DNA from: Gillisia sp. CAL575
GTDB lineage: Bacteria; Bacteroidota; Bacteroidia; Flavobacteriales; Flavobacteriaceae
Direction: 5' to 3'
Assembly: GCF_000403785.1 (NCBI RefSeq)
Contig: NZ_APHJ01000021.1
Span: 558,001 to 622,000 of the forward strand
DNA: 64,000 nucleotides
Shown here piece by piece: positions 21,114 through 26,463 of this stretch. Every line of letters begins with the position of its first letter. Position 1 is the first letter of the stretch. The notes under the pieces were generated by a model. The model was not told the DNA's origin. It saw nothing but the letters and a program-made list of their open reading frames with translations, and made no database searches. Position numbers and translations under genes: made by a program.

Positions 21114-22106
21114 ATGGCTTTAGATAATATCCGTTTAGAAGTAATGAAAACTGTCGAGAAACAGGTAGATAGTTTCGTAGATAAGTATTTGATACCCGTT
21201 GAAGAAATTTGGCAGCCAACAGACCTATTGCCAAATCTACAAAACGAAAATTATTTAGATGAAATTAAACAGATCCGTGAAGAGTCCAAAGAATTAGGTT
21301 ATGATTTTTGGGTAGTACTCGTAGCCGATATGGTTACAGAAGAAGCTTTGCCTACTTACGAATCCTGGTTAATGGACATGGAAGGTGTTCAACAACATGG
21401 AAGACAAGATGGATGGTCTAAATGGATTAGACACTGGACTGGAGAGGAAAACCGACATGGTGACACCTTGAACAAATACCTTTACTTATCTGGAAGGGTA
21501 GATATGCGTGAGATTGAAAAAACTACTCAATATCTTATTAGTGACGGTTTTGATATTGGAACCGGACGTGATCCTTACAGAAATTTTATTTACACCAGTT
21601 TTCAAGAATTAGCAACCAATATTTCCCATAAGCGAGTTGGACAACTTGCTAAGAATAAAGGAAATAAAATGCTTGCTAAAATGTGTAATGTTATTGCTGG
21701 TGATGAAATGAGACACCATTTGGCTTACAGGGAGTTTGTAAATATCATTTTTGAACATGATCCAAGTGAAATGATGTTGGCTTTCCAAGACATGATGAAA
21801 AAGAAAATTGTAATGCCGGCTCAATTTATTAGAGAATCTGGGGAAGGGATTGCAACAGCGTTTGAAAATTTCTCCAATGCGGCGCAACGTTTAGGTGTTT
21901 ATACAACATATGATTATATAGACATACTACAGAAATTAAATGATTATTGGGAAATTGATAAGTTTACGTCTCTAACAGATGAAGCAGAGAAAGCTAGAGA
22001 TTATCTTATGGCATTACCAGATAGAATGACACGTATTGCAAGTAGAATTTCTGTACCTCAAGATCAACACCAATTTAAATGGGTTGCTGCCAACGGAATT
22101 CTATAA
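21114..22106 (+). CDS. Acyl-ACP desaturase (ferritin-like, soluble)
   Basis: 330 residues. Two diiron ligand motifs, EENRHGD (about 108-114) and DEMRHH (about 200-205), define the family of stearoyl-ACP delta-9 desaturases, which insert a double bond into acyl-ACP using O2 and reduced ferredoxin. It would adjust membrane unsaturation. The 152 bp upstream contain a weak hairpin (21019-21038) and no other gene. A terminator follows. Confidence 0.92.
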   Translation: MALDNIRLEVMKTVEKQVDSFVDKYLIPVEEIWQPTDLLPNLQNENYLDEIKQIREESKELGYDFWVVLVADMVTEEALPTYESWLMDMEGVQQHGRQDGWSKWIRHWTGEENRHGDTLNKYLYLSGRVDMREIEKTTQYLISDGFDIGTGRDPYRNFIYTSFQELATNISHKRVGQLAKNKGNKMLAKMCNVIAGDEMRHHLAYREFVNIIFEHDPSEMMLAFQDMMKKKIVMPAQFIRESGEGIATAFENFSNAAQRLGVYTTYDYIDILQKLNDYWEIDKFTSLTDEAEKARDYLMALPDRMTRIASRISVPQDQHQFKWVAANGIL

Positions 22107-22126
22107 TCTCCATAATAATTTAAGAC

Positions 22127-22156
22127 AATAAAACCCGAAAAATTTCGGGTTTTATT
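22127..22156. terminator. Bidirectional terminator between desaturase and scoB
   Basis: Nearly perfect palindrome AATAAAACCCGAAA / TTTCGGGTTTTATT (22127-22140, 22143-22156). It has A-rich and T-rich flanks on both sides, lies between the convergent desaturase and scoB genes, and should act in both directions. Confidence 0.88.
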
Positions 22157-22184
22157 ATTTCATATAAAATGATTTTTAGAACTG

Positions 22185-22838
22185 TTATAACTTCATTTCT
22201 GGAATGTCGCCTTCAATAATTAAAGTGCCTTCAGTAGCCTTTTTGATGTCTTCTACACTTACTCCTGGAGCTCTCTCTAATAATTTAAATCCCTTATCTG
22301 TAACCTCGATCACTGCCAGTTCTGTAACTATCTTAGTAACACAACCAACTCCAGTTAATGGCAAAGAGCATCTTTTAAGCAATTTAGACTCTCCAGCTCT
22401 ATTGGTGTGCATCATGGCAACTATAATGTTTTCTGCAGAGGCCACAAGATCCATAGCACCACCCATGCCTTTAACCATTTTTCCTGGGATCTTCCAATTG
22501 GCTATATCTCCATTTTCGGATACTTCCATTGCCCCTAAAATTGTTAGATCTACATGTTGACCTCGAATCATCCCGAAGCTCATGGCAGAATCAAAGAAGC
22601 TAGCGCCTGGCAAGGCAGTAATAGTTTGTTTTCCTGCATTAATTAGATCGGCATCCTCTTCTCCATCAAAGGGAAAAGGACCCATTCCTAAAATTCCGTT
22701 TTCACTCTGGAATTCAACATTTATATCGTCTCTAACAAAGTTGGCCACCAATGTTGGAATTCCAATACCAAGGTTTACATAATATCCGTCCTGAACTTCT
22801 TGAGCTATTCGCTGTGCAATTCCGTTTTTATCTAACAT
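22185..22838 (-). CDS. scoB: Succinyl-CoA:3-ketoacid CoA-transferase subunit B
   Basis: 217 residues. Beta subunit of the enzyme that moves CoA between succinyl-CoA and acetoacetate. The catalytic glutamate lies in the SENGILGMGP motif; GIGIPTLVANF and GGAMDLV are also conserved. The alpha subunit scoA lies 423 bp upstream in the same direction; the two are normally adjacent, but here a broken four-helix-bundle gene and short repeats lie between them. Confidence 0.95.
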   Translation of the reverse strand: MLDKNGIAQRIAQEVQDGYYVNLGIGIPTLVANFVRDDINVEFQSENGILGMGPFPFDGEEDADLINAGKQTITALPGASFFDSAMSFGMIRGQHVDLTILGAMEVSENGDIANWKIPGKMVKGMGGAMDLVASAENIIVAMMHTNRAGESKLLKRCSLPLTGVGCVTKIVTELAVIEVTDKGFKLLERAPGVSVEDIKKATEGTLIIEGDIPEMKL

Positions 22839-22844
22839 AAGAAT

Positions 22845-22876
22845 GTGTTGATTTGAAAATGTGTTGATTTGAAAAT
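22845..22876. repeat. Exact 16-bp tandem duplication
   Basis: The unit GTGTTGATTTGAAAAT occurs twice head to tail (22845-22860 and 22861-22876), immediately upstream of the scoB start and abutting the end of the broken four-helix-bundle frame. The sub-sequence TTTGAAAAT also occurs inverted on the other side of that frame. Confidence 0.9.
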
Positions 22877-23229
22877 TATCTCTTTTTTGCTGAACTTATT
22901 ATTTTGGAAATAATCTTCATTATAATATTTAAGTCGTTTAATAGTTGTGGGTTTGGCTGAGGTAGAAATGTTGATTTATCGCATAATTCTAACCAATATT
23001 AAGTTTCATCGCCCTCTTTAGCTGCAATTTTAAATTTATGAATAAAGTCTTCGGTACTTTCAGAATTCTGTGCTTCTCTTACATCAGCGCCTATGGACGT
23101 ACCGCGTTTAAATAGCTGTGAAGCCATTTCGAATTTTCTATCATTCCTCAATTCTTCTGCAAATGAAATTACTTTTAGAGAAAACTCATAAGTCTTATTA
23201 ACAATAATATTTTCCTTATCATCTCTCAA
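22876..23229 (-). pseudogene. Four-helix-bundle (S23-type) protein interrupted by an in-frame stop
   Basis: From a TTG at 23229 the frame encodes 76 residues (VNKTYEFSLKVISFAEELRN..., ending AAKEGDET), then meets TAA at 23001-22999. Reading through it, the same frame continues for 40 residues starting YWLELCDKST and ending IISSAKKR at a second TAA (22878-22876). Together they give about 117 residues, the usual length of this family, with the conserved ET-x-YWLELC junction. A single base change (for example TTA to TAA) explains the break; a sequencing error is possible. The family also occurs as the 23S rRNA intervening-sequence protein. An ATG start is not available because a TGA lies two codons upstream of the TTG. 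Confidence 0.8.
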
Positions 23230-23261
23230 CTTTCAAATTTTCAGATTAGCCAATTTTCAAA

Positions 23262-23960
23262 TTATTTTTGTCTAACTGTTCTCTGTTCAATTCTCTTTTC
23301 ATAATTCTTTCCTTGAAAGATTCGCTGAACAAATATTCCTGGAATATGAATTTGATTAGGATCCAATTCTCCGGGTTTCACTAATTCCTCAACCTCAGCC
23401 ACAGTAATTGTTGCTGCACCGCACATTAGAGGATTGAAGTTTCGCGCTGTTCCTTTGAAAATAAGATTTCCAGCTTCATCCCCTTTCCATGCTTTTACAA
23501 AGGAAAAATCAGCTTTATATGCATGTTCCAGAACATACATTTTCCCATCGAAATCTCGAGTTTCCTTACCTTCAGCAACCTCAGTTCCAAATCCAGCAGG
23601 AGTATAAACTGCAGGAAATCCTTGCTGTGCTGCCTGACATTTCGCAGCTAACGTACCTTGAGGGGTTAATTCTACATCCAACTCACCGCTAAGCATCTGC
23701 CGCTCAAATTCAGCATTTTCACCCACGTAGGAAGAGATCATTTTTTTAATTTGCTTTTTTTGAAGTAGTAGACCTAATCCAAAATCATCTACCCCTGCAT
23801 TATTAGAAATACAAGTAAGGTCCTTGACATTGAGTTTTACTAATTCTGAAATAGAGTTTTCGGGGATTCCGCTAAGTCCGAATCCACCTAACATCATTGT
23901 CATCCCGTCCTTTACACCTTCTAGTGCATGCTGAACGTTCTTTACAGTTTTTTTAATCAT
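23262..23960 (-). CDS. scoA: Succinyl-CoA:3-ketoacid CoA-transferase subunit A
   Basis: 232 residues. Alpha subunit of the CoA-transferase, with the glycine-rich [13 protein letters not shown] segment near residues 26-38 and the typical C-terminus [12 protein letters not shown]. It is intact despite the inserted sequence that begins at its stop codon. With ScoB it allows acetoacetate to be used as a carbon source or ketone pools to be balanced. Confidence 0.95.
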
Positions 23961-24073
23961 TGAAATTTCATTTGTGGAAATTTACAAAAAGTTTAAACTT
24001 ACTACAACGATTTCATTAAGGCAATTTTCTTAAAGTGGCATAAGAATTAAAGATTCTAAGCTTTTTAATTAAA

Positions 24074-24106
24074 AAAACGAGAACTATTTAGAATAGCTCT
24101 CGTTTT
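24074..24106 (-). terminator. Terminator after the penicillin-binding protein gene
   Basis: Arms AAAACGAGAACTATT (24074-24088) and AATAGCTCTCGTTTT (24092-24106) pair apart from one central mismatch, with a 3-nt loop. Leftward a run of seven T residues follows. It ends the leftward RicT-GldH-PBP unit and separates it from scoA. Confidence 0.88.
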
Positions 24107-24132
24107 GAATATTTATTTTGAATCTGAGTTCT

Positions 24133-26463
24133 CTAAAAATCCAACTCGTCTGGAATGTTTTGAGAGTCGTTCTGTCCCCTTTTATAAGTGTCACAATTAA
24201 TTTCTATTGATAAGTTCTCTGGTCTAGGAAAAGCTCCGCTAGAAACTCCTAGATCCTTTTCAGAATATACATTTTTCATATACGTTCCCCAAATAGGTAA
24301 AGCCATGGTAGCTCCTTGCCCATAAGTGATTCCTGGAAAGTGCACCGCACGATCTTCTCCACCAACCCAAACTCCACTTACTAAATTAGGAACCATTCCC
24401 ATAAACCAACCATCACTCCCATTTTGAGTGGTACCTGTTTTACCCGCGATTGGATTTTTAAAATCATACGGATAGCCAGTCATTGTTTTTTGATAAAAAT
24501 CATTATTTACTCCCCAACTCCCTCTTAATCTGGTTCCGGTTCCAAATTGAGTAACTCCTTCCATAAGATTAACGGTAACAAAAGCTGTTTCTTTACTTAA
24601 AACATCTTTAGTTTCTGGTACATGCTGGTATAGAACCGTTCCATTCTTATCTTCAATTCTATTTACAATAACTGGTTTTACATAAACACCTTCATTTGCA
24701 AAGGTTGAATAAGCAGATACCATCTCAAATAAGCTCATATCTGCAGTTCCTAGAGCAATAGAAGGAACTGCTGGAATATCTTTAGTGTCTACTCCTAGTT
24801 TGCTTAGTAATTCTATTACGGGCCTTGGACCAGTTTTAGAAATCAATCTTGCAGAAATAGTGTTTACAGAATTTGCAAGTGCATTTTTAAGAGTCATCAT
24901 ACCCTCATATTTACCATCACTATTTGCAGGAGACCAGTCGTTTTGTGCGCCCATTCTACCAGCTTCAATAGTAAAATGATTTCTAGGCAAGGTATCGCAA
25001 GGAGATAATTTTAGTTGTTCTATTGCTGTAGCATAAACAAAAGGCTTAAAGGTAGATCCAACTTGTCTTTTTGCTTGCTTAACATGTTCGTATTTAAAAC
25101 TCTTGAAATCTATTCCACCAACCCAAGCTTTAACTTCTCCTGTTTGTGGTGTCATAGACATCATCCCAGCCTGAAGAAAAGATTTGTAATACAAAATAGA
25201 ATCTCTTGGTGTCATAATAGTATCTCTGGTACCTTTCCAGCTAAAAACTCTCATTTCCCTTTTTTCATCGAAAGATTTTAAGATCTCATCCTTAGATTTT
25301 CCTTGGGCTTCCATTTTATGCCATCTTTCAGAAACTCTCATGGCATTTTTCATAATATTTGCAACCTCATCTTCATTCACATCTCTAAATGGCGCTGTTT
25401 TATTATTTTTATTCTGCCTATCAAATTCTCTCTGAAGATTAGCCATATGCTTTGCAACTGCATCTTCTGCAAATTCTTGCATTCTAGAATCTATACTCGT
25501 GTAGATTCTTAATCCATCTCGATAAATATTATAATTAGTACCATCTGCCTTCGGATTTTTCTCGATCCAATCTTTCATGAAACCTTGAAGGTATACTCTA
25601 AAATAAGTAGCGATACCTTCATCATGACCCTGAGGCGTAAAACTGATCTTCATCGGGGTTTGTTGTAAGGAGTCCTTTTCTTCAGTAGTTAGAAATCCAT
25701 TTTTCTCCATTTGCTTGAAAACCTGATTCCTTCTTTGTTCTACAAGTTCTGGCCTTCTCACAGGATTGTAAAGTGCAGAATTTTTCAGCATGGCAACTAA
25801 AACTGCAGATTCTTCCAGTTTTAAGTCCTTCGCTTCTTTATCAAAATAAATCTTAGCCGCAGAACGAATTCCTACTGCTTGATAAATAAAATCGTACTTG
25901 TTGAAATACATCGTAATGATCTCCTCTTTGGTATACTGACGTTCCAAACGAATAGCGATAATATATTCCTTAAACTTCTGAATTACCCTTTCAAAGAAGT
26001 TTTTAGAAACATCTTCAGTAAACAAAAGTTTAGCTAATTGCTGGGTAATTGTACTCGCACCCCCGCGAGAACCCAAGAAAATAGCTGCTCTCAATGTCCC
26101 TTGAGCATCTATTCCAGAATGCTGATAATAACGTTCATCTTCTGTAGCAACAAGAGCTTCAATTAGGTGATCTGGAAGGTCATCAAACTTAATTGGAGTT
26201 CTATTCTCACTATAATATTTTCCAAGTGTTTCGCCATCTGAAGAAAAAATCTCTGTAGCTAAATTAGTTTCAGGATTTTCCAGCTCTTCAAATTTCGGCA
26301 TTTTCCCAAAAGCGCCCCATCCAGCAAGCAAGAACAAGAGAACAATCACTAATATCCCTGCTCCAAATAGAGTCCAGAAACCTATAATATATTTTCTAAA
26401 ACTAGTGGGCTTTTTAGAATTCTTAGGGGTTGTTTTTTTTGAAGGGTTTGCCATGAGTGCCAT
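24133..26463 (-). CDS. Class A penicillin-binding protein (PBP1A-like)
   Basis: 776 residues from the ATG at 26463 (MALMANPSKK; an ATG three codons later is also possible). It polymerises and cross-links peptidoglycan. A single N-terminal anchor helix (about 30-52) precedes the GT51 glycosyltransferase domain (ATEDERYYQHSGID, GGASTITQQLAK) and a transpeptidase domain with SxxK (GSTFKPF), SVN and KTGTT (GKTGTTQNGSDGWF). A longer frame would overlap gldH. Neighbours are gldH and a RicT-like gene. Confidence 0.95.
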   Translation of the reverse strand: MALMANPSKKTTPKNSKKPTSFRKYIIGFWTLFGAGILVIVLLFLLAGWGAFGKMPKFEELENPETNLATEIFSSDGETLGKYYSENRTPIKFDDLPDHLIEALVATEDERYYQHSGIDAQGTLRAAIFLGSRGGASTITQQLAKLLFTEDVSKNFFERVIQKFKEYIIAIRLERQYTKEEIITMYFNKYDFIYQAVGIRSAAKIYFDKEAKDLKLEESAVLVAMLKNSALYNPVRRPELVEQRRNQVFKQMEKNGFLTTEEKDSLQQTPMKISFTPQGHDEGIATYFRVYLQGFMKDWIEKNPKADGTNYNIYRDGLRIYTSIDSRMQEFAEDAVAKHMANLQREFDRQNKNNKTAPFRDVNEDEVANIMKNAMRVSERWHKMEAQGKSKDEILKSFDEKREMRVFSWKGTRDTIMTPRDSILYYKSFLQAGMMSMTPQTGEVKAWVGGIDFKSFKYEHVKQAKRQVGSTFKPFVYATAIEQLKLSPCDTLPRNHFTIEAGRMGAQNDWSPANSDGKYEGMMTLKNALANSVNTISARLISKTGPRPVIELLSKLGVDTKDIPAVPSIALGTADMSLFEMVSAYSTFANEGVYVKPVIVNRIEDKNGTVLYQHVPETKDVLSKETAFVTVNLMEGVTQFGTGTRLRGSWGVNNDFYQKTMTGYPYDFKNPIAGKTGTTQNGSDGWFMGMVPNLVSGVWVGGEDRAVHFPGITYGQGATMALPIWGTYMKNVYSEKDLGVSSGAFPRPENLSIEINCDTYKRGQNDSQNIPDELDF

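Follow-up and report, generated by a model that had tools for sequence, protein, structure and literature searches.

What is a four-helix-bundle gene, interrupted by a stop codon, doing between the two subunit genes of a 3-oxoacid CoA-transferase? The question arises in a stretch of 64,000 nucleotides from Gillisia sp. CAL575 (hereafter the window), where scoA, encoding subunit A (23262-23960, minus strand; TIGR02429, 259.2 bits, cut-off 128.5), lies upstream of scoB, encoding subunit B (22185-22838, minus strand; TIGR02428, 326.4 bits, cut-off 243.55). The original prediction placed about 420 bp between them; the gap measures 423 bp, and the profile matches confirm both neighbours.

An interrupted S23 gene between scoA and scoB

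The gap holds an S23/IVP-type frame (22876-23229, minus strand) that starts with TTG and, when read through a single in-frame TAA at 22999-23001, runs for 354 nt, or 117 codons and a stop. As predicted, the TAA follows residue 76 of what is otherwise a whole four-helix-bundle protein: in profile searches the read-through product is a full-length PF05635 protein (66.6 bits, cut-off 33.8), and residues 1-76 alone match TIGR02436 (50.7 bits, cut-off 24). A lone stop in an otherwise full-length frame could be a sequencing error, in which case the window copy would be intact. We regard this explanation, which concerns the stop only, as quite unlikely, given that the S23 gene at the scoA-scoB junction of G005 carries a different, independent in-frame stop, and that stops within the match occur at 9 of 96 S23 loci (the window locus included, the frameshifted L008 set aside).

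The frame is enclosed by repeats. Read in sense, a 5' arm (23230-23261, minus strand) directly follows the scoA stop codon, and a 3' arm (22839-22876, minus strand), consisting of a 16-nt unit present twice, shares one base, the last, with the S23 stop codon and runs up to the scoB start. The module in this way fills the junction, with inverted TTTGAAAAT arms around the S23 frame: TTTGAAAAT is found on the 3' arm side at 22852-22860 and 22868-22876, and ATTTTCAAA abuts the scoA stop codon at 23253-23261 and recurs, with one mismatch each, at 23237-23245 and 23229-23237. Aligned as an inverted pair, the arms score 16; shuffles average 8.7, and 6 of 2000 reach that score, so that the inverted repeats originally proposed, including the contact with the scoA stop, are upheld. 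Their period is 8/16 and not 7, with self-matches of 0.54, 0.56 and 0.58 at lags 7, 8 and 16 in the 5' arm, and of 0.72 at lag 16 and only 0.21 at lag 7 in the 3' arm. An Rfam search of the region around the module (21900-24200) gave no match. The best explanation is that an intercistronic module which recurs elsewhere has decayed here, its protein being interrupted.

Inverted heptad arms as a rule of S23 loci

In the genome of CAL575, nine PF05635 rows correspond to eight S23 loci, two rows (L008 and L009, which we merged) being one frameshifted gene. Each of the eight, judged by eye, sits in a short gap and has its own repeats, the left complementary to the right. One of them, L001, is homologous to the Xanthomonas campestris S23 protein in PDB 2gsc (E 9.6e-22). 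Decayed S23 genes of this genome include L004 (1501-1815), with an in-frame TAG, and the frameshifted L008 (1501-1814).

Among the matches listed, 27 of the 40 genomes searched, CAL575 being one of the 40, have PF05635 matches. For arm statistics we used 96 loci, eight from this genome and 88 from relatives, the latter taken largely by score among the matches listed, with lower-scoring rows and the weak locus L035 left out; L008 was also kept out of the S23 tree, and L008 and L005 out of the profile. A second set consists of 80 named loci, the best of at least 581 that were confirmed in a search with a single S23 protein; they are Bacteroidota for the most part, and the other labels among them belong mostly to MAGs and could be incorrect.

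An S23 gene typically stands between two inverted arrays of short tandem repeats, most often with a period of 7. Across the 96 loci, the inverted match between a locus's own left and right flanks averages 18.0 against 11.1 for flanks of different loci, a mean reached by none of 10,000 permutations. The own partner ranked best of 96 in 23 loci and among the top five in 58, and was not special at several, for example L032, L062 and L074. Self-match of the flanks is about 0.43, 0.39 and 0.36 at lags 7, 14 and 21, against 0.31 in shuffles; lag 8 gives a weaker signal. The named set (best 80 of at least 581) behaves alike: own flanks score 18.7 against 12.0 for mismatched ones (0 of 10,000 permutations), and self-match is 0.416, 0.374 and 0.355 at lags 7, 14 and 21, other lags lying near 0.29. 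Going by record labels, the own partner ranked best in L250 (Betaproteobacteria), L270 (Desulfobacteraceae), L273 (Syntrophobacterales) and L241 (Chlorobiota), and fifth in L259 (labelled Peregrinibacteria); L240, L214 and L251 fit poorly, with partner ranks of 67, 62 and 60. Inverted repeat arms were also seen by eye at five of six S23 loci on cyanobacterial plasmids; at the sixth, L312, a long heptad array is confined to one side.

A module with the anatomy of rRNA intervening sequences

The 23S rRNA intervening sequence (IVS) of Coxiella burnetii, as described in parts of one report (PMC4990558), is about 430 nt long, has complementary ends with an S23 gene in the loop, and is excised by RNase III; its S23 gene is prone to decay, and S23 proteins are described there as being without known function. 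The window module is like it in element size, in complementary ends that enclose an S23 gene and in the decay-prone gene itself (PMC4990558). Unlike the IVS, the module lies between scoA and scoB, outside the 23S rRNA gene, and each of its ends is built of short tandem units whose sequence is particular to the site.

Because the anatomy matches the rRNA IVS, our preferred reading, to which we give about an even chance of being right, is a 23S-IVS-like element in mRNA, with S23 in sense, inverted arrays and an operon junction as its site. Such a module would span some 410-490 bp and comprise an S23/IVP gene in sense and two inverted arrays of short, mostly 7-nt units, gene and arrays jointly filling the operon's stop-to-start junction. 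It would presumably be co-transcribed with the operon, S23 would be made from the polycistronic transcript, and the arms could join the ends as a hairpin, which would let the neighbouring cistrons tolerate the insert. RNase III might cleave that hairpin and S23 might act on the arms; that the module is mobile, and how it spreads, are inferences. Counted in favour of the IVS-like reading are the inverted arms of both sets of loci and their period of 7, the shared layout, and purifying selection on S23. The fold predicted for the window module, in which the two ends are paired, speaks for it too; against it, shuffled sequence folds as well as this module does (z -0.30, 35 of 100 as good), and the fold of the L021 module has z -2.60. 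The 8/16 period of the window arms counts against it.

Placement in operon junctions

Orientation was scored at 93 of the 96 loci, three being skipped for flanks that were too short. S23 lies in sense between co-directional genes at 83 of the 93, which favours the IVS-like reading; against it we count the other ten, of which three are antisense to both neighbours, five divergent, one convergent and one without an upstream frame. On the cyanobacterial plasmids S23 is in sense with both neighbours at four of six loci and antisense to both at two, these two again being counted against an IVS-like module.

The same junctions recur: fadB-fadA 15 times, sufA-sufB 10, fadA-acad 7, ffh-folD 6 and ruvC-hemW 5, besides smaller groups and 37 groups of a single locus. 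These names, like sufC-sufD, sdhA-sdhB and ugd, are ones that we presume from the neighbours' sequences. The array begins at the upstream stop codon, a further point for the IVS-like reading: over 36 loci, the match to the locus's own heptad is 3.3-3.9 inside the upstream gene, 4.56 of 7 for the 7-mer at the stop and 5.5-6.2 after it. TAG serves as that stop at 40 of 81 loci, compared with 119 of 612 background genes, orthologous sites being counted more than once. Across 793 kb of the CAL575 genome, same-strand gaps of at most 30 bp account for 1,528 of the 87,746 intergenic bases, and such junctions are therefore small targets. Matched inverted arms at an operon junction, recurring with different repeats, point to a little-noticed class of insertion module.

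Empty, remnant and refilled junctions

Thirty scoA loci were surveyed, CAL575 included, with 29 readable gaps whose status was assigned by eye. The expectation that scoA and scoB are normally contiguous holds for part of them only: 13 gaps have neither S23 nor arms, eight of these measuring 0-27 bp, and against it 12 of the 29 hold S23 and four hold repeat arms only. At sufA-sufB, where 28 of 30 gaps were readable, eight hold S23 at 109 bits or more, nine are 8-19 bp long, and the remaining 11, of other lengths, have no scored S23, G011 and G005 being among them with probable remnants. The near-empty alleles at these two junctions are counted for the IVS-like reading. In the scoAB tree, G014, with a gap of 9 bp, is nested within an occupied clade (98/99), so a clean loss of the module is likely there; this, too, favours the IVS-like reading.

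Much of the genus has S23 between scoA and scoB, as do other genera, mostly with one S23 clade, and the insertion is therefore not young. The original prediction of an insertion module stands for a short S23 module set inside an operon between inverted arms, for the IVS-like anatomy, for decay by a stop and for near-empty alleles in relatives; it is to be revised as regards age. More than one S23 lineage occupies a single junction: at scoA-scoB the S23 of G030 (L068) belongs to a markedly different clade, and S23 of a different clade likewise sits at fadB-fadA in several genomes. The scoA-scoB S23 of G002 groups (support 100) with that of G044, of another genus, the two standing on a long branch within the S23 clade of this junction, unlike the scoAB genes of G002, which group with its own genus. 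From such losses and foreign S23 clades at one junction it follows that modules persist for long and are lost, and that their junctions are refilled.

Two observations would also suit an ordinary, vertically inherited gene that is useful to its operon and has incidental repeats. S23 proteins cluster by junction, with 15 label changes against a shuffled mean of 45.5 in a quick tree built on few columns, and S23 is under purifying selection in six junctions, with median dN/dS values of 0.24 (44 pairs), 0.38 (5), 0.19 (5), 0.23 (7), 0.14 (6) and 0.39 (2), which we set down as a difference from the 23S rRNA IVS. The frequent absence of S23 with a gap of 0-27 bp, the different S23 clades at one junction, the many unrelated operons and the matched arms all weaken this explanation, and we hold it to be very improbable.

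Arm sequences are private to each junction

Left arms of a given junction, compared across genomes, have a similarity of 22.58; those of different loci in one genome have 10.25, and other pairs 10.29. Each junction has a repeat sequence of its own that is inherited in place, and the copies in one genome do not share it. The idea that the window's own repeats would surround other S23 genes of CAL575 accordingly failed, the arms of the other copies differing in sequence; of the two signs looked for, near-empty alleles do occur in relatives, and similar repeats do not occur elsewhere in this genome. Repeats common to S23 copies, as in terminal inverted repeats of IS or MITE type, are likewise rejected by the values of 10.25 within one genome and 10.29 for pairs sharing neither genome nor junction.

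Within a junction, own arms beat those of other genomes at fadB-fadA (2 of 20,000 permutations as extreme) and sufA-sufB (41 of 20,000); the figure is 1,480 of 20,000 at fadA-acad, smaller groups show nothing and ruvC-hemW is reversed. That this matching is clear for fadB-fadA and sufA-sufB only is counted against an IVS-like module. Arms made anew at each insertion and arms that change jointly are both possible.

Possible RNA or DNA hairpins

The G-U signature of RNA pairing is absent from the arms: alignments scoring 14 or more contain 196 G-U-compatible and 301 A-C-type mismatches, which does not set them apart from mismatched pairs (p 0.16), and an RNA stem kept by G-U pairs is unsupported. 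This counts against the IVS-like reading. With no sign of RNA pairing in the mismatch spectrum, a DNA-level role is left open. The arms could be single-stranded or cruciform DNA ends recognised during movement by S23 or by a host or trans-acting enzyme, and the sense bias would then arise if only co-transcribed copies stay alive. The near-empty, arms-only and re-occupied junctions fit this possibility, as do the arrays at fadB-fadA, which differ in unit copy number between close relatives. Against it, the copies in one genome have differing arms where a transposon would have fixed ends, no enzyme for mobility was identified for the module, and CAL575 has no PF00078 (reverse transcriptase) match. 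We consider a DNA-level hairpin element possible, if rather doubtful.

The Avd protein of diversity-generating retroelements has a related fold. A reverse transcriptase was considered as mobiliser. Unlike such a retroelement, the CAL575 genome has no PF00078 match, and this candidate was rejected: 11 of the 40 genomes searched (CAL575 among the 40) have a match, and 18 of the 29 without one have S23. G002 has sixteen reverse transcriptase matches, mostly near-identical in score.

According to parts of the same report that describes the Coxiella IVS, the X. campestris S23 protein (PDB 2gsc) is a homopentamer of four-helix bundles (PMC4990558). As an idea only, one 7-nt unit might bind per subunit, which would make the arms a multivalent binding site.

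Heptad arrays with and without S23

In 856 kb of the CAL575 genome there are seven strict period-7 arrays, two at one S23 locus and five solo; block-shuffled sequence of this stretch has none. The same 856 kb hold 25 inverted-arm clusters, three at S23 loci, the window module with its 8/16 period among these three; the scan missed two of the five S23 loci in the stretch.

Heptad arrays might be primary, arising by replication slippage or another process at stop-start junctions, with S23 merely settling in or between them. The five solo arrays out of seven suit this view, and so does the survey of TAACTGA arrays, rejected as S23 footprints with S23 near only one of 15 distinct arrays read and the other 14 without S23 within about 1.5 kb. 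Two results oppose it: the sole two of the 25 inverted-arm clusters with a lag-7 match of at least 0.6 are both S23 loci, and own left and right arms match specifically. We think it unlikely that the arrays came first.

Two of the solo arrays, C20:46517-46603 and C20:340559-340643, consist of about eight and nine GGTTTCA or GGTTTCG units and lie between genes, with no inverted partner or S23 nearby. At L173, around 1420-1521, an inverted heptad pair (TCAGTA-type and TAACTGA) stands back to back with no gene between.

Relation to other heptanucleotide repeats

TAACTGA heptamers have been described from Beggiatoaceae, Cyanobacteria and five Bacteroidetes, in short intergenic regions by start codons (PMC4679880). 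They resemble the module arms as 7-nt tandem units in short intergenic regions and, unlike these arms, are mostly direct; "helix bundle" and "S23" are absent from the paper's text (PMC4679880). The GGGAATC heptamers of Xanthomonas and GGGGA(C/T)T of Nostoc form two close convergent arrays in 70 and 75 cases, respectively, according to portions of another paper, and share both heptads and close convergent array pairs with the module; its text, too, is without "S23" and "helix bundle" (PMC4692102). Full-text literature searches, which left out most subscription papers, listed nothing recognisable as tying S23 genes to heptad arms, and an earlier description is possible.

We tentatively suggest, while thinking it likelier to be wrong than right, that S23/IVP genes supply the protein of a so far undescribed kind of hairpin module, present in several phyla, whose inverted 7-nt arrays are rewritten per site yet kept matched at operon stop-start junctions; the rRNA IVS would be its rRNA branch, and the orphan heptads of Cyanobacteria, Xanthomonas and Beggiatoaceae would in part be its traces. 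The module could thereby supply a protein partner for unexplained heptanucleotide repeats of several phyla. With its near-empty alleles, arms-only remnants and replacements, it offers many natural replicates for arm turnover, S23 specificity and operon expression.

On two cyanobacterial plasmids, an S23 gene with heptad arrays lies between cas6 and cas4 (L309, 889-1248; L312, 880-1248).
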